A stretch of 64,000 nt of DNA from Mangifera indica. Lineage: Eukaryota > Streptophyta > Magnoliopsida > Sapindales > Anacardiaceae. Where the stretch lies: positions 1,922,001 through 1,986,000 of the forward strand of contig NC_058137.1 of NCBI RefSeq assembly GCF_011075055.1, read 5' to 3'. The stretch's first letter is position 1, and each line of letters opens with the position of its first letter. Under the pieces are notes generated by a model. It worked only from the letters and a program-made list of their open reading frames with translations. It had not been told where the DNA came from and searched no databases. A program made the translations under genes and the position numbers. Below are positions 7,719-64,000 of this stretch, one piece after another.

Positions 7719-9974
7719 CTACGCAGTTTTCCAAGCAGAAAGGGCATAGATGATCCTTCCTTTCCATCCCTGCAAAAGCCACCGACTGTCTTCGTCAATT
7801 ACAAAATCTTTATGGTAGTTGGACCTCACTCTTTGAGTTGCCACCTTCACTATCTGCCGGTCAAAAGGAATCTGAACAAACCCAGCCCTAAGGTTTCGGA
7901 CTTGCCACTGCTTGTAAGTCTCTGGCCTTTCAACTCTCTCCCAGCCTTCACATGCTATAACATTCAAGGCCTCCCGGCCAAAGATCTCTTTCTCGATCAG
8001 CATCCTCTCACGATCTTCGCGGGGTACAATAGTTTCAAGCATATCGAACATTGCAGAGAAATGAAACAGAGCCTCTCGGAACCGGGTTACAAAGAAAGGT
8101 GCATTGTAGGCCCCGTTGACAATCCCGTGGATGAAAACATCCGGATTAATCTTCCTTATCAAATTGAGAAATATATTTCTTGCACTATCCACTGAAACAG
8201 TTTCATCAAGCAAGTTTTTACCTCGATACAAGCAATTAACAACCAGGAATTCGTCCCTGTCAATTTTCAGATCCTCAAGTTGAACGCAATCCCATCTTTT
8301 TGCTATAGCATGATACTCAAAAGGCACTTTGAACTCCTTAGCATAATCCGCTAAGCGACGTCCTGTTTCCTCAACTCCCTCTGCCGGCCGAAAACCAGGT
8401 TGGGGAAATTCTATTCCAGTAATCCGAAGCTTTGGAGGACCACCAGATCTTGTAGAAATCCGCTGCAAAAAGGTGGGCCACTGAAAACCATAAAGGATAC
8501 CAAAGTCTATGATATGAAGTCTCGTTGAGTTTTCTGCTAAGTTCCTTATTGTCTTGTTTGCAGTAAAATTAGAGATCTTTCTGAAAGGGCAGCAAGCAAG
8601 ATACAGGTAATAAGCTTTCAATATATCAGCAGCTGATATTCTCTTACTAACAAGGCCTTTGTAAATCTGGCTACCAGTGCCTGCCAAGCGTGCCTCAAGG
8701 CCATCTGCAAAGCAATGAGCCAATCTCTGATTTCCATCCCCAAAAGGAGAAGAATGCTGTCTTATCTGCTTCAGCAATTCATTTGCGTTCCTTCGATCGT
8801 CAGCAGCAACAGCTTGCACACAAAGAATTAGGAGAGTTCTCAAATCCACCACTTCATTTTTTCCACTCTGTTTCTTACCACGACCCTTTCCACCATTAGA
8901 TCCTTTTGATTGTCCATTTTGCTGCACATTTTTGTTTGATGCATTCTTAAAGGCTTCACGACGAGCTGCCATTGGGTGAGGTTTTCCACAAGCACAAAGC
9001 AACACCATATCAAACATCTCTGTTCGCAACGGGGATTCTAGATAAACTGCTGCCAGCTTGCTGCTCCTCTCTTCTTCTAAATTTGCATAGTCTCTACAAA
9101 GATTCTTCTTTCCCCTTGAGCCATTGGGTGAGCAATCTTCCCCATCATTTTTCTCCGCCTTTACTGCCACTTCACTAGAGCCGCCCTTTGGCTGCTGAGA
9201 TAGCATTTGATTAACGTCAAAATTAACAAATAACTCATTTTCATTCGGTAGAAATTTACTAGCCTCCTCAACACCTCTCCTGAATTGCCATATGGATTGG
9301 CTCTCATTATTCCAATCAGGGATCTGAAGGATACTGCTTGGAGAGTCCACCAGTCCATCCACACTTGTGATTACACTATTTGAAGAACTATAAGATGACC
9401 GAGATATGCTAGAAAGTAGATGAGTTTGTAATTCAGGCACAAAATATTCACCTGGATTCTGAATCCAAGTACTATCAACAAGGTAATTATTCACATCACT
9501 ACCACGATTAATACAATTATGGGAATTTCTAAAGGCATAACTATCCTGAATCTCCTCGTTCCGCTCAATATAAGAAAATTTTCGCTCAGGGGAAGGAGGG
9601 TACTTTTTGCCAAGAACATCATAGAATGATTTCTCAGCAGCTTCAAGATCCAAAGACCCTTGTAGCATGTAAGTCTTATCCTCCATATCTTCCTCCATAA
9701 GCATCTGATTTATGTACCTCAAGACTGCATCTGAAAAATCACAGTCTTCCGGGGAGTCTTCCTCATGATTTACACTTGAAATCGAGGCACCATTATTCGA
9801 TGAGGGATCAGGTTGACAGTACTGATAATCCCTAAAATTGTGATCTGCAAAGATACTATTGCCAAAATTTCCACCAACGAAATTCTGATTCGGAAATACC
9901 GGCAAGGGTTGATTGCTCAATTGGATCCCATTTACAGAACCTGAGAACACCCTTGACCTTGGGTCCATAATCAT
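7719..9974 (-). CDS. GRAS transcriptional regulator, SCL14/SCL33/SCL9-like (LISCL group)
   Basis: Nuclear GRAS-family co-regulator of 751 residues in one exon, the usual size for the SCL9/14/30/33 group. SCL14 partners TGA factors to induce detoxification genes; that role is inferred here by similarity. The N-terminal 375 residues are variable and acidic and include the blocks DAVLRYINQMLMEEDMEDK and AEKSFYDVLGKKYPPSPER typical of the group. The GRAS domain starts near residue 377. LHRI is VDLRTLLILCVQAVAADDRR, the VHIID core reads LHIIDFGILYGFQWPTFLQR, and LHRII contains GRRLADYAKEFKVPFEYHAI. The PFYRE region is NPDVFIHGIVNGAYNAPFFV with RFREALFHFSAMFD. The SAW motif ends ...WKGRIIYALSAWKTA. 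The start follows a likely 5' UTR intron whose donor is near 10270. No lesions seen. Confidence 0.95.
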   Translation of the reverse strand: MIMDPRSRVFSGSVNGIQLSNQPLPVFPNQNFVGGNFGNSIFADHNFRDYQYCQPDPSSNNGASISSVNHEEDSPEDCDFSDAVLRYINQMLMEEDMEDKTYMLQGSLDLEAAEKSFYDVLGKKYPPSPERKFSYIERNEEIQDSYAFRNSHNCINRGSDVNNYLVDSTWIQNPGEYFVPELQTHLLSSISRSSYSSSNSVITSVDGLVDSPSSILQIPDWNNESQSIWQFRRGVEEASKFLPNENELFVNFDVNQMLSQQPKGGSSEVAVKAEKNDGEDCSPNGSRGKKNLCRDYANLEEERSSKLAAVYLESPLRTEMFDMVLLCACGKPHPMAARREAFKNASNKNVQQNGQSKGSNGGKGRGKKQSGKNEVVDLRTLLILCVQAVAADDRRNANELLKQIRQHSSPFGDGNQRLAHCFADGLEARLAGTGSQIYKGLVSKRISAADILKAYYLYLACCPFRKISNFTANKTIRNLAENSTRLHIIDFGILYGFQWPTFLQRISTRSGGPPKLRITGIEFPQPGFRPAEGVEETGRRLADYAKEFKVPFEYHAIAKRWDCVQLEDLKIDRDEFLVVNCLYRGKNLLDETVSVDSARNIFLNLIRKINPDVFIHGIVNGAYNAPFFVTRFREALFHFSAMFDMLETIVPREDRERMLIEKEIFGREALNVIACEGWERVERPETYKQWQVRNLRAGFVQIPFDRQIVKVATQRVRSNYHKDFVIDEDSRWLLQGWKGRIIYALSAWKTA

Positions 9975-16200: not shown

Positions 16201-16283
16201 AAAAGCACATACCACATTGTCCTTGTACTTCTTCCTGACTGGTACCCTCCCCTAAATCCAGTTATAGAAATTCATTAAGATTG

Positions 16284-16288
16284 GAATA
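16284..16288. repeat. Left target-site duplication GAATA
   Basis: GAATA directly precedes the first TG of the left LTR and is repeated at 20391-20395 directly after the final CA of the right LTR. Five base pairs is the standard duplication for Ty3/gypsy and Ty1/copia integrases. Confidence 0.95.
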
Positions 16289-16880
16289 TGTTAGGACTCA
16301 TATATTTATTTATTTCCTGCAGGAAAAGAGAGGGTATAAAAGGGAAATGCAAAATCGGAAGCTGTTATCCTAATGCAAAATCAGCCACTAAAAATATGAA
16401 ATGTGGCAAAACAGGGGAAGGAGAGAGAGAAGTAGCTGTGGAAAAGAGTTAAAAGGAGAGCAGGTGCTGGAAAGAGGGGAGGAGGGAAAAATTTGAGTAG
16501 AGTGAGCGGGAGAGAGTCAGCCTCTCGAAAGCTGAACAAGGGAGCCTTTGGCTATGGTTTTTGGAGTTGTTTTGTGAATACTTTTGGAACTCAGTTCAGT
16601 GTTACTGAGTTGTGCCTTGCTGGAAATCTGTATTTGTTCTGTAAATTTGTGTTAATCAATTGTAACAGCTGAGAAATAGTCATTGTATTGGTAGAAAACT
16701 GCTGTAATCAAGTTTATAACTCCATCAATACAGCACATTTTTCTGCGCTATTTACATTTGTGTGTTCTGTCTTGGCTGGAATTTACGCAGTTCAGCAGTT
16801 GCTTTAGTTGGGTGATTAAGCTTTGGGTGAGATATCTTCAGAAGTGCAGTGGCAGTGAGGGGTTACCCAGGTTCCCATCA
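16289..16880 (+). repeat. Left LTR (592 bp)
   Basis: Starts TGTTAGGACTC and ends GGTTCCCATCA. Line-by-line reading shows no difference from the right LTR at 19799-20390. A TATA box (TATAAAA) lies at 16335-16341, about 46 bases into the LTR, so transcription probably starts near 16365. A GA-rich stretch follows at 16418-16540. Confidence 0.97.
16335..16341 (+). promoter_or_regulatory. TATA box in left LTR
   Basis: GGGTATAAAAGGG context, a strong plant-type TATA box. The copy in the right LTR (19845-19851) could drive transcription out of the element into TRP exon 1 DNA in the antisense direction. Confidence 0.7.
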
Positions 16881-16882
16881 AT

Positions 16883-16894
16883 TGGTATCAGAGC
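16883..16894 (+). other. Primer-binding site for initiator tRNA-Met
   Basis: TGGTATCAGAGC, the classical plant retrotransposon primer site complementary to the 3' end of initiator methionine tRNA, two bases after the left LTR. Confidence 0.95.
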
Positions 16895-16907
16895 ACCGAT
16901 TCTAAGG

Positions 16908-19883
16908 ATGGAGAAAGTCGACTTCATCAAAGATAGTGGGCGTTGGTGGATGGTTCGACGACTGACTCAATGGGAACTTCGAGAATCGATGACGAACAAA
17001 ATTTGTCCTCGCTGTGACGACAAGAAAGAGCCGAAGCATGACTGTAAGCGCAAATCATGGGCCATTCTTGTGGTGGAAGAAGACGATTTGGATGATGAAG
17101 GCGTCCTAATCGTATTTGACAGTGAAAAAAGGGGGAAAGAAGTTGAGATTGAGAATTTTGGCGAGAAAATAGTCGATTTAGGTGACTGGGAGAAGAAATC
17201 GGCAATATACAGTGAAAAAGTGGACGATGCCAACGAGATCCAGCGGTCAGAGTTCACTCTCTCACTTGGTTGCAGCGTTCCTGAGATGAAGATGCTGAAT
17301 GCTGGAGAAGGAGGCGCCCATGAAGAAAGAAGAGGAGGAGGAAGAAGGGTTTATAACCCTACCCGGCCCAATAACCCATTTACCCAGCCCAAACCCAACT
17401 CATTAAACCAAAATCCATCACTATTAAACCTAGCCCAATACCCAATCACACCCATACTAATTGATTCCGGCCCAAAACGTTTTTTACTCAACTCAAAATC
17501 AAATCCAACTACTAAGCCCAATCCAAAACCAAATTGGAATAACCCAGGAGCCCATAACCCAAACCCATTGCAATTAAATCCAAATCCATTACAACCCAAT
17601 TCTCAAAGACTCAATCTAGCCCTAACTCAACTCAACCTATACATTATATATTCCAGCCCAAAAACCCTTACACCAATAAATTCAAACCACCATACTCAAT
17701 TAATCATACCTAATAAAAAACCAAACCCAAGACCCGACCCGAAACCCAATTGGCCCATACCAAATATGAGCCCATCTTTTCCGCAATCTAATATGCATTC
17801 CAATAGATCAGACCAGAAGACAGATCAAAATCTGCTGTCTCATCTTCTAAGGAGCCTTGCTAGTCCTGCTGGTGAAAACGGAGGAAGAAGCATAGCAGGA
17901 CTCTTGCAGGATTCACAAAATATAATGAATCATTGCACTCATGTTGGGAACCCAGAAGTTGTTTCAGCTTTGATCGCAAATGGTCAAGGTCCTCCTGGGC
18001 CTTTCAGACAACATCTCAGTGTATCTGTATCTGAGATGCCACAGCAAGGTCCAACTGCTCATAATGCCAGGGGTGCAGAAGTTCAAGATGGTGCTGCAAG
18101 GCAGATCGAAATGAATAATTTTGATTTGAATGACATATATGTTGACTCAGATGATGGCACAGAAGATGTTGAGAGACCGTCTGTTCCTGCAAATCTGGGG
18201 GATAGCTCTCTTGATTGTCCTTCATGGGTCCAAATAGACTCTCAACAGTCGAGTCCCCCTCAGACTAGTGGGAACTCAGATTCAGCATCAGCCCAGTCAC
18301 CTTCTAGTTCCAGTGGAGATGCTCAGAGCCGCACAGATCGGATTGTGTTTAAGCTATTTGGGAAAGAACCAAATGATTTTCCTTGTGTCCTACGAGCACA
18401 GATACTTGAGTGGCTATCTCACATTCCTACTGATATGGAGAGCTATACTAGGCCTGGTTGTGTCATTCTGACGATTTATATTCGTCAGGCTGAAGCTGTT
18501 TGGGAGGAACTTTGTTGTGATTTGACTTTTAGTTTGAGGAGCCTTCTGGACCTCTATAATGACTCTTTCTGGACAACTGGATGGGTTTATGTTAGGGTGC
18601 AACATCAGATAGCATTCATTTACAGTGGTCATGTTGTTGTAGACACATCCTTGCCTCTTAGAAGTAACAGCTACAGTCAAATTCTTACTGTCAAGCCAAT
18701 TGCAATATCTGCGTCAGAGAGGGCACAATTTTCAATTAAAGGCATCAACCTATCTCGGCCAGCCACAAGGTTACTCTGTGCAGTAGAAAGGAAGTATATG
18801 GTTCAGGAAACTACTGATGCAGTAATGGATGATGTTGACAGCTTCAAAGACTATGATGAGCTCCAGTGTGTCAACTTTTCTTGCTCAATCCCTACAGTAA
18901 CTGTAAGAGGGTTTCATTCTAGCTTTAGAACCACTCAGGGAGGCTTGTCTCTGAATATTGATGTATCAACTACAATGATTATACAGCCTGGCCCCATTTT
19001 TGATTTTCTAATAGCCAATCAACACGTCAGGGATCCGTATGCAATAGACTGGGCCAAGGCTAAACGAACACTAAAGAATCTACGGATCAAGGTGGCTCCA
19101 TCCAACCAAGAGTACAAGATAACTGGATTGAGTGAGAAACCCTGTAGAGAGCAGATGTTTTCACTCAAGCAGAAAAATGTGAGGGATGAGGATGGTGAAG
19201 TTCAGTCCCAGGAATTAACTGTTTATGACTACTTTGTCAATCATCACAGTATGGATTTACGATATTCAGCAGATATTCCTTGCATCAATGTTGGGAAGCC
19301 AAAACGCCCTACATATACCCCACTTAAGCTTTGTTCTTTGGTTTCCTTACAACGTTACACAAAAGCTCTTAACACTCTACAGAGAGCTTTGCTTGTGGAA
19401 AAATCAAGGCAGAAGCCACAAGAAAGGATGAATACATTATCTAATGTTCTACGAAATGGCAAGCATGATGCTGAACCAATGCTACGTTCATGTGGCATTT
19501 CAATAAGTACTAATTTTGCTAAAGTGGAGCCAACAAAGATAGAACGATGGGCTGTTGTGAACTTTTCTGCACGCTGTGATATTCGTAGCCTTGTTCGTGA
19601 TCTGAAAAAAATGTGGCGACATGAAAGGCTTGAAGGTGTATCAGAATACAAGTATTCCTCCTATAGTGATCTTGAATTGCTTAATAAGTGGAAAGGGTTG
19701 CCGGATTGCAAGTGGACTTGGGAATCATGCAACAACCTTCAATATCTTTTTCCCCAATCACACCTTGAGGACAAGGTGCCTCTCGATGGGAGGGGAAATG
19801 TTAGGACTCATATATTTATTTATTTCCTGCAGGAAAAGAGAGGGTATAAAAGGGAAATGCAAAATCGGAAGCTGTTATCCTAA
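16908..19883 (+). CDS. Chimeric gag-SPL-AGO4-chromodomain fusion protein of the retrotransposon (991 aa)
   Basis: One uninterrupted frame. Start chosen as the ATG just after the primer site; the frame is open back to 16758 in the LTR, but that ATG would include LTR sequence. Order: gag-like residues 1-130 with zinc knuckle [14 protein letters not shown] (C-x2-C-x7-H-x-C); an Asn/Pro-rich linker, residues about 145-295; an SPL1/SPL12-type piece without the DNA-binding SBP domain, about 296-669; an AGO4-clade piece, about 667-901, with the end of L1, PAZ and L2 but no MID or PIWI; a chromodomain-like end ([17 protein letters not shown]); and a short tail encoded by the right LTR. The host pieces are intronless although AGO4 genes have many introns, so they were captured from mRNA. 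Not an AGO or SPL orthologue. Whether it is translated is unknown; slicer activity is impossible without PIWI. Confidence 0.85.
17340..17790 (+). repeat. Asn/Pro-rich low-complexity coding stretch
   Basis: Encodes repeated NP, PNPKPN, NPNPLQ and QPN words. It lies between the gag-like part and the captured SPL piece and has the CCA/AAC-rich composition of a slippage-generated linker. Such Pro/Asn-rich tracts also occur in gag proteins, so it may be parental. Confidence 0.7.
17793..18914 (+). other. Captured SPL1/SPL12-type host gene fragment (intronless)
   Basis: Family blocks in order: [96 protein letters not shown] and a last block ending in RGF. These are the mid-protein regions that follow the SBP domain in the large SPL proteins (SPL1, SPL12, SPL14). 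The SBP zinc fingers and C-terminal ankyrin part are absent. A block usually present before [11 protein letters not shown] seems deleted near 18090-18105. Several usually constant positions differ, for example IYIRQ for IYLRQ and [10 protein letters not shown] for a LLDLSDDSF-like sequence, so this copy has diverged from its donor. Confidence 0.92.
18906..19632 (+). other. Captured AGO4-clade ARGONAUTE fragment (L1 end, PAZ, L2; intronless)
   Basis: Begins [20 protein letters not shown], the end of the L1 region of AGO4/6/9-type proteins, and continues through [88 protein letters not shown] and [12 protein letters not shown]. About 35-45 residues seem missing at [13 protein letters not shown] (near 19515-19530). 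The frame of the AGO homology breaks at a run of seven A (19605-19611): after it the AGO-like KCGDMKG continues in the next frame while the chimera reads [11 protein letters not shown]. Nothing of MID core or PIWI follows. Confidence 0.93.
19636..19798 (+). other. Chromodomain-like end of a Ty3/gypsy integrase
   Basis: Encodes [20 protein letters not shown] followed by a [10 protein letters not shown] tail, matching the conserved KWKGLP...TWE...FP.FHLEDKV end of plant chromovirus polyproteins. The integrase core upstream is gone. This anchors the element's parentage and keeps the parental 3' end next to the polypurine tract. Confidence 0.88.
19788..19798 (+). other. Polypurine tract
   Basis: GGGAGGGGAAA immediately before the right LTR, the priming site for plus-strand synthesis. 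Confidence 0.93.
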
Positions 19884-20390
19884 TGCAAAATCAGCCACTA
19901 AAAATATGAAATGTGGCAAAACAGGGGAAGGAGAGAGAGAAGTAGCTGTGGAAAAGAGTTAAAAGGAGAGCAGGTGCTGGAAAGAGGGGAGGAGGGAAAA
20001 ATTTGAGTAGAGTGAGCGGGAGAGAGTCAGCCTCTCGAAAGCTGAACAAGGGAGCCTTTGGCTATGGTTTTTGGAGTTGTTTTGTGAATACTTTTGGAAC
20101 TCAGTTCAGTGTTACTGAGTTGTGCCTTGCTGGAAATCTGTATTTGTTCTGTAAATTTGTGTTAATCAATTGTAACAGCTGAGAAATAGTCATTGTATTG
20201 GTAGAAAACTGCTGTAATCAAGTTTATAACTCCATCAATACAGCACATTTTTCTGCGCTATTTACATTTGTGTGTTCTGTCTTGGCTGGAATTTACGCAG
20301 TTCAGCAGTTGCTTTAGTTGGGTGATTAAGCTTTGGGTGAGATATCTTCAGAAGTGCAGTGGCAGTGAGGGGTTACCCAGGTTCCCATCA
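19799..20390 (+). repeat. Right LTR (592 bp)
   Basis: No difference from the left LTR was found by eye. The chimeric frame ends 85 bases inside it. It is followed by the second GAATA (20391-20395). Confidence 0.97.
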
Positions 20391-20526
20391 GAATATCAAC
20401 TCTTAATACACAAATATAACTCTAAAGCAGTAAGCACTTATTTACCCTAACTGATCTAGGTGCACGAGGAACCACAGGCACCTCATAACCACTGAAACCA
20501 TAATCCAACCACCTCTGCAACACCAT

Positions 20527-51465: not shown

Positions 51466-51466
51466 C

Positions 51467-51538
51467 GCCATCTGTGGGGAATGAACCCCACGACCACATG
51501 GTTAAGAGCCATGTGCTCTACTGCTGAGCTAAGATGGC
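51467..51538 (-). tRNA. tRNA-Lys (CUU anticodon), possibly degenerate
   Basis: Reads as a full cloverleaf on the minus strand: acceptor arms GCCATCT / AGATGGC pair perfectly, anticodon arm CATGG-CTCTTAA-CCATG gives anticodon CTT, T arm TGGGG-TTCATTC-CCCCA. Discriminator base is G (51466). Two oddities: the D loop (CAGCAGTAG) lacks the usual GG pair, and T-loop position 58 is T rather than the near-invariant A, which also weakens the B box. No T-run terminator follows closely on that strand. It could be a pseudogene or a tRNA-derived repeat. Confidence 0.6.
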
Positions 51539-62870: not shown

Positions 62871-63346
62871 AGTATATATAACAGTATTTTTATATTATTA
62901 TAGCAATTTGGGGTTTGGGTTTGGGTTTGGGCTTGTTCTTGGCTACTGGGCTGAAAATTTTTAATGTGGGCTTAATAAAATATTAGGCCTTAAATTAGAT
63001 CAAAAAGCCCACCAAAATTGAGAAGTCAAAACTCAGAATAATTATTAAGCTTGATATCTTTACAAATAAGTGACACAATTCAGGTAGAAAGATGGATGGT
63101 TCCATCGTCAAACTATAAATAAAAATGCTTGATATATTCATTCCATTTTGTTTGGTTTCTTCAGAAAAGTGGCCTGCAAGCGAAGGAGCTGTGCCCTAAA
63201 TCCATAACAATGAGGGGGCTGTAATGGCAGCCTTACAATGTTAAATGGGGTTAAGGGAAGAAGGGATGTTTCCCTTTCACCGAATCAGGTTTTAGTTGGG
63301 TTGAGAAACGTGGCTCAGGGCGTCAGGCTCAGGGAGATCAGACCAG

Positions 63347-63374
63347 AGACCCTCTGGTTCAAACCAGAGGGTCT
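63347..63374. repeat. Perfect 13-bp-arm palindrome followed by a T-run
   Basis: AGACCCTCTGGTT and AACCAGAGGGTCT are separated by CA, giving a near-perfect hairpin, with GATTTTTTTT directly after. GACCAGAG words upstream suggest local duplication. Confidence 0.85.
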
Positions 63375-64000
63375 GATTTTTTTTATTTTTTCAACCCCAT
63401 CTCGCCCACACACCCGTCTCACCGATCCCTATGAATTTTGCAGGCTTTTTTGTACTCTTTCATAATTTGATATTACTTTTCTTCCTTTATTTGGAGTTTG
63501 TGGTGTTCATTTTAGGTTAGCGTGAAACGATGTCGTTTAAAGAAATTGAATTCCTCCATACCCCACCTACCATAAAAACCTGTGTCTTTTCAGAGGTGGG
63601 TCATCAATGGAGATTTGGGAGGATCAGGATCTCCCTCAATTTTACAATATGATTGATATGTCAAATCAATCTTTTGTTATTCCAAAGATACCCTTCTATC
63701 ATTCTTTTCCAGATTTAGCTCAGCATCCTTCCCGTCTCTTCACTTTTCTTTTCTTTAATATATTAGACAACCGTAATTACAAAATCCCAAACCACCCACC
63801 AGACCAACTCAAAAGAATTGTTGGACCAAACTCCCTAATGGGTCCTTCCATGTTCAATAACTTGTGAAAGAGTCCTACAGGAAAAGAGGGTTCTAGTTCT
63901 GCTTCGATGACAAAATGGTTTGAATTCAAGGACTATTAGCCATACGTTAAAACGTTATTGTTCATCTTTATGAAAAGCTAGTAGTCATTGCATAATATCA

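Follow-up and report, generated by a model that had tools for sequence, protein, structure and literature searches.

A recent mango retrotransposon insertion with spliced SPL1 and AGO4 segments probably belongs to a chromovirus-derived family that repeatedly captured host mRNAs

Background

TR-GAG, TRIM and LARD are non-autonomous long terminal repeat (LTR) elements, and Bs1 of maize is not known to encode a reverse transcriptase (RT). The published account of Bs1 reports transduced pieces of three host genes, and a chimeric gene that arose from the element (PMC13317346). Surveys of LTR-captured genes in rice and sorghum and of retroduplicated NLRs in pepper also find host genes inside LTR elements, the pepper captures lying mostly in non-autonomous elements and deriving from spliced mRNA (PMC3726574, PMC5664825). 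In Drosophila, the retroelement TART-A is reported to have captured part of the silencing gene nxf2 and to produce small RNAs that match it (PMC7785250). Here we analyze an element of 4102 bp at positions 16289-20390 of a 64-kb window (C1:1922001-1986000, the whole stretch of DNA considered) of the Mangifera indica assembly of 391 Mb. A first-pass annotation had read it as a young LTR element with pieces of two host genes, SPL and AGO4, and had held such capture to be rare; Bs1 and the plant surveys instead show it to be established in plants.

Our analysis supports, with a probability of roughly 0.84, the view that this element inserted recently and belongs to a non-autonomous, chromovirus-derived LTR family that has repeatedly captured spliced host mRNAs while keeping one open frame.

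Results

A recent insertion with two spliced host segments

The window element is complete. Its two LTRs show 0/592 differences, and the GAATA duplication, the primer site and the polypurine tract were all located as the first-pass annotation had described them, which identifies the element as an LTR retrotransposon. The insertion is recent. The primer site is TGGTATCAGAGC, which we take to be complementary to the initiator Met-tRNA. When the element was compared by BLAST with the window, the matches were the element itself and its own LTR pair only.

Between the LTRs lies one long reading frame that encodes, in order, a nucleocapsid-like leader, an NP-rich linker, an SPL1 segment, an AGO4 segment and a weak chromodomain end. 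Any single homologue covers at most 44% of this chimera (among 120 of 530 homologues listed), and a homology search with the first 320 residues returned 7 proteins, all SPL1-type. Pfam recognized PAZ (2.1e-26, nearly full-length) and ArgoL1 in the protein. As had been claimed for RT and integrase, no capsid/gag, protease, RT, RNase H or integrase model matched, and the element is in this respect not an autonomous Ty3/Gypsy chromovirus. With the same library, a Ty3 ORF from another part of the mango genome did give RVT_1 and protease matches; it is a gag-pol frame with gag, protease and RT domains at L048:6871-9900. The leader, which carries the expected gag knuckle, matched no Pfam model; it aligned with the L048 frame between the gag and protease domains (26% over 66 aa, E 3e-8), at the nucleocapsid position of a Ty3/chromovirus gag. 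At the other terminus, for which a chromovirus chromodomain had been proposed, a C-terminal end is found family-wide, and its Pfam Chromo match lies below the cut-off (E 0.36 with the whole protein, 0.016 with the C-terminal piece). When the two ends were searched in viral contigs, there were 44 pattern matches for the leader and 4 for the C-terminal end, none of them confirmed.

The SPL1 segment (aa 294-669) shares 94% identity with mango SPL1 over 376 residues. The genome search for it gave four scored candidates, namely the window element, an element on C13 (L040), a gene on C8 and a paralog on C5. The parent is the C8 gene, whose matches are split over separate exons and six of whose introns are missing from the window element, five between exon matches and the sixth at base 13/14. 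The C5 paralog was rejected as parent on synonymous divergence (dS 0.221 versus 0.060 for the C8 gene). The AGO4 segment (aa 667-901) matches Pistacia AGO4 at 210/235 residues (89%) outside one 33-residue gap. Its parent, on C2, has seven exon matches that are contiguous in the window element; five host introns are cleanly missing, and two more fall within a stretch where the window element has lost 99 nt by a deletion between positions of AGTGGAR repeats, near 19522. The relative L015 is without this deletion, and the introns of that stretch are missing there too. Exon skipping was rejected as the cause of the 33-residue gap, because both borders of the gap lie inside host exons at the AGTGGAR repeats and L015 keeps the stretch. 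Both segments come from spliced mRNA, in agreement with the initial reading.

Relatives share the ends and differ in cargo

The LTR search of the assembly gave 107 candidates, of which 40 were scored, all of these 40 lying in the window or in fetched stretches. The leader was found in 11/17 fetched LTR-match loci, plus L040 and L053-L055, and was absent from the other six (L010, L011, L018, L023, L024, L025). Nine further stretches were fetched: three span one tandem array on C3, and six have no copy of the element. Two of these six, L046 and L048, have a weak leader-like match, which in L048 falls inside the Ty3 gag-pol frame. All 10/10 relatives inspected have 5-bp target-site duplications (TSDs). 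The lineage has moved more than once, in line with the mobile lineage that had been proposed, with many relatives besides the second SPL copy on C13.

Six cargo arrangements were recognized between the common ends: SPL1 with AGO4 (the window element and L040); a DUF7815 gene with AGO4 (L009); a CBS-domain gene with AGO4 (L015, L016 and L017; CBS E 1.9e-4 in L015, just short of the Pfam cut-off); an HSP90-type gene with AGO4 (L020, E 2.9e-18); ketol-acid reductoisomerase with AGO4 (L014 and L053-L055; E 1.7e-204 in L053); and a sixth, unnamed cargo without AGO4 (L012 and L013), for which a search of the PDB with L012 gave only two weak matches. L053, L054 and L055 have LTR identities of 100, 99.8 and 100%, 957 codons without a stop, and mutual differences of 4 to 24 in 3100 bases.

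Some further features of the relatives were observed. In L023, a brief stretch on the opposite strand matches the C-terminal end. The C3 array (C3:14764000-14787000; L051, L043, L050) comprises at least nine cargo-less units of ~1.7 kb, each made of LTR, leader, linker and C-terminal stub, with LTRs shared between units. L015 and L016, ~31 kb apart on C18, have the same flanks and TSD and are probably one insertion duplicated, or an assembly duplicate. When the LTRs of L015, L021, L022 and L040 are aligned with that of the window element, some match at positions 157-592 only and others at ~1-250 only, a pattern that would fit an exchange of LTR halves.

AGO4 was probably captured before SPL1

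All 17/17 candidates of the AGO4 genome search were scored, and AGO4 pieces occur at 13 places in element context. Eleven were read; the places on C14 and at C11:14.9 Mb, matched only at the AGO4 tail, are outside these 11. In P0123 residues, the pieces extend over 19-207 and 482-554 in L020, 165-207 and 482-554 in L014, 48-130 and 482-565 in L053-L055, 337-554 in L015-L017, 347-554 in L009, 348-567 in L040 and 277-544 in the window element. The 3' end in the relatives falls at residue 554-567, and the joint to the chromovirus end is common to the copies read, so that one capture explains all 11.

Since AGO4 is common to elements without SPL1, stepwise capture is the most likely course, with AGO4 probably preceding SPL1. 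For the same reason we rejected simultaneous capture, and with it the proposal that two mRNAs had been copied together into one particle genome. The divergence from the host is higher for AGO4 (dS 0.068-0.087) than for SPL1 (0.048-0.060). This fits an earlier capture of AGO4, with the caveat of small counts. The linker-SPL joint of the window element recurs in L040. Because the two SPL1 copies split (dS 0.042) before the window element, with its identical LTRs, was inserted, the SPL1+AGO4 chimera has moved since.

An open frame in most cargo-bearing loci

An open frame played no part in choosing the family loci, which were located through LTR, SPL or AGO4 DNA. The leader shares one frame with the C-terminal end in 11/12 loci (the window element and 11 leader loci, the exception being L022) and in L053-L055. 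Among cargo-bearing loci the proportion is 12/13 (exception L040), and at least one in-frame copy exists in 6/6 cargo arrangements, with a chance of 0.0014 for all six. In the window element, the indels near the AGO4 tail, scored relative to L009, L014, L015 and L020, sum to -27 and leave the frame intact.

Such a frame could be kept solely because it protects the genomic RNA from nonsense-mediated decay, the protein sequence being irrelevant. We consider this a serious possibility, somewhat short of even odds. It agrees with the last open stretch extending into the 3' LTR in the window element, L012, L014, L015, L017, L020 and L053-L055, although a stop precedes that stretch in L015, L017 and L020. 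It also agrees with near-neutral ratios of non-synonymous to synonymous change (dN/dS) for SPL1 between the window element and the C13 copy (1.14) and for the reductoisomerase part between L014 and L053 (0.89). Against it stand the leader, with ratios of 0.11-0.31 between the window element and L015, L020 or L014, and AGO4, with 0.32-0.49 in 5/6 element pairs and 0.72 in the sixth. From the window element, leader dN/dS is 0.11-0.46 to distant relatives and 0.52-0.77 to close ones; the low values at distance may be a legacy of an autonomous ancestor. The whole frame gives 0.44 for L012 versus L013, and the shared part of L014 and L053 gives 0.58 (P 0.04).

A different pressure would be involved if the AGO4 remnant were kept as an aid against RNA-directed DNA methylation, either through AGO4-matching small RNAs or through a fusion protein with an AGO4 fragment. 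The 13 places with AGO4 pieces speak for this idea, as do the within-family changes, which sum to 25 non-synonymous and 18 synonymous plus one stop after subtraction of the 3 non-synonymous and 4 synonymous changes common to all elements. This non-synonymous share is below the expectation of 0.77 (P 0.0046) and differs from that of SPL1 (P 0.034). However, 0.77 ignores transition bias, which in simulation lowers the expectation to about 0.71 at kappa 4, and the sixth AGO4 pair, the window element versus C13, has its ratio of 0.72 with P 0.36; the sign of constraint on AGO4 is for these reasons no more than suggestive. Exact matches to host AGO4 amount to 304/687 21-mers and one 64-nt run, and TART-A with nxf2 offers a proposed precedent (PMC7785250). 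Yet SPL1 is equally parent-like (514/1108 21-mers), so the AGO4 matches may simply reflect recency; PAZ is lost from the reductoisomerase and HSP90-type arrangements, and L012 and L013 have no AGO4. We regard this explanation as unlikely. Decidedly unlikely, in our judgment, is its extension, in which the family would be a dedicated gene-collecting platform whose inherited AGO4 piece counters RNA-directed DNA methylation through matching small RNAs or the fused fragment; if true, the piece would allow continued movement of the family and continued sampling of host mRNAs, which would end up in in-frame fusions of chromodomain type.

Finally, it is very improbable that the window element is a one-off gene capture, an unconstrained by-product open through youth and chance. 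Neutral SPL1 change, the excess of changes in conserved SPL1 columns (12/33 in elements versus 263/3255 among orthologs) and the drift probability of zero stops (P 0.16-0.19) would suit it; the family does not: there is a second SPL copy, AGO4 in element context at 13 places, 11 of them read, in-frame copies in six cargo arrangements and cancelling indels in the window element itself.

Several observations weigh against a capturing family with a maintained frame. The SPL1 part looks neutral, and selection on it was rejected: the element branches carry 33 non-synonymous to 8 synonymous changes (14:4 in the window element, 15:3 plus a stop in C13, 4:1 on the stem), versus 4:7 in the host. By simulation, the P value just given means that the absence of stops from the SPL+AGO part of the window element is not improbable under drift. 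The SPL sibling L040, with 23 stops that reflect its frameshift, and the cargo-less L022 are out of frame, as are all but 2/9 of the cargo-less C3 array units, and in 9/15 elements (L022 not counted) the leader frame is interrupted by one or more stops upstream of the 3' LTR. The spliced origin of the reductoisomerase, HSP90-type, CBS and DUF7815 cargo is suggested by protein matches. At the joints the shared letters are few, with an exact match of three to four bases between linker and SPL, and AGG exactly, at most AGAGG, shared by the hosts between SPL and AGO. The genome-wide LTR search proposed for counting relatives and finding the autonomous partner delivered the relatives, and no such partner among the 40 scored of 107 candidates.

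A possible mechanism

Under the preferred reading of serial capture, the shared ends would act as a chassis, in which LTR, primer site, leader and linker form the 5' side and chromodomain-type end, polypurine tract and LTR the 3' side; most copies carry an AGO4 tail on the 3' side. Element RNA and host mRNA may be co-packaged in particles formed by an autonomous chromovirus. As the minus strand is made, the 3' chassis would be copied first; synthesis would then switch to the host mRNA and return to the linker, and integration of the product would follow. AGO4 would have come first, and later captures, including SPL1, would have replaced different stretches of it. The joints are compatible, as sequences, with template switching. 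A 7-nt exact match considered at the SPL-AGO joint was discarded, as the host letters show one mismatch in AGGRTTT. Clear repeat-associated losses are seen within AGO4, at the AGTGGAR repeats, and in its tail, at CTTGAAGG repeats. Products whose frame stays unbroken between the leader and the 3' LTR would survive more often, probably because translation is needed for RNA stability or packaging, or through a protein function of the fused ends; either RNA stability or a fusion protein may be the reason, as both fit the data.

Feature coordinates and host locus

The positions of all parts are given in Table 1. The window element lies antisense within what appears to be the first intron of a telomere-binding-protein gene; this intron measures 4194 bp as it stands, and removal of the element and one GAATA leaves 87 bp. 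We infer that exon 1, exon 2 and a downstream exon, which matches TBP1 in the PDB (E 2.4e-8) and has no Pfam match, form one gene. The insertion may affect its splicing. Elsewhere in the window there are a GRAS-family open frame of 751 aa (7719-9974, minus strand; Pfam E 1.3e-124) and predicted genes for tRNA-Lys(CTT) at 51466-51538 and tRNA-Pro(AGG) at 63285-63377.

Table 1. Parts of the element and of its insertion site, in window positions
Feature	Position	Strand	Detail or basis
Target-site duplication, left copy	16284..16288	.	GAATA; sequence
5' LTR	16289..16880	+	592 bp; TG...CA; TATAAA at 16335
Primer-binding site	16883..16894	+	TGGTATCAGAGC; sequence
Single open reading frame	16908..19883	+	991 codons; stop inside 3' LTR
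N-terminal leader	16908..17345	+	family-wide; knuckle C-x2-C-x7-H-x-C at 17004-17045
NP-rich linker	17346..17786	+	also present in cargo-less L019, L021, L022
Captured SPL1 segment	17787..18914	+	mango SPL1 residues 252-627, without six host introns
Captured AGO4 segment	18906..19612	+	linker 1, PAZ, linker 2, start of Mid
Indels at the AGO4 tail	19605..19635	+	+1 base in A-run plus 28-bp deletion between CTTGAAGG repeats
C-terminal chromovirus-type end	19627..19798	+	family-wide; weak chromodomain match at 19671-19742
Polypurine tract	19785..19798	+	GATGGGAGGGGAAA; sequence
3' LTR	19799..20390	+	592 bp, identical to 5' LTR
Target-site duplication, right copy	20391..20395	.	GAATA; sequence
Intron 1 (inferred) of telomere-binding-protein gene	16252..20445	-	4194 bp; 87 bp without the element and one GAATA

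Comparison with known systems

A natural series of captures with parents in the same genome makes the order, the joints and the frame rules of retrotransposon gene capture directly readable. AGO4, the source of the shared remnant, is central to the silencing pathway directed at elements of this kind, and a plant arms-race hypothesis can be tested with ordinary small-RNA data.

Like chromoviruses (Ty3/Gypsy), the window element has a leader that aligns at the nucleocapsid position; its end adjoining the polypurine tract has the sub-threshold chromodomain match. Unlike them, it matches neither a capsid model nor those of the four enzymes named above. It differs from TR-GAG, TRIM and LARD in carrying host cargo and in matching no gag model. 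Bs1 (PMC13317346) and the window element are both LTR elements with pieces of several host genes, and the mango family differs in having different captures on shared ends, with the AGO4 capture shared, and in joining a nucleocapsid-like leader in frame to a chromodomain-type end. The surveys of rice, sorghum and pepper, in their available parts, describe no shared in-frame design of leader, cargo and chromodomain, which the mango family has. TART-A with nxf2 is the closest precedent for the anti-silencing idea, being a retroelement with a piece of a silencing gene; it is a telomeric element of flies. In the literature searched, with subscription literature largely outside it, we found no description of an LTR family that carries AGO4 or SPL1 as cargo, or that joins leader, cargo and chromodomain serially in one frame. 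Capture by LTR elements is already well known; what is unusual in mango is that the captures are serial and in frame and that a remnant of a silencing gene is common to them.

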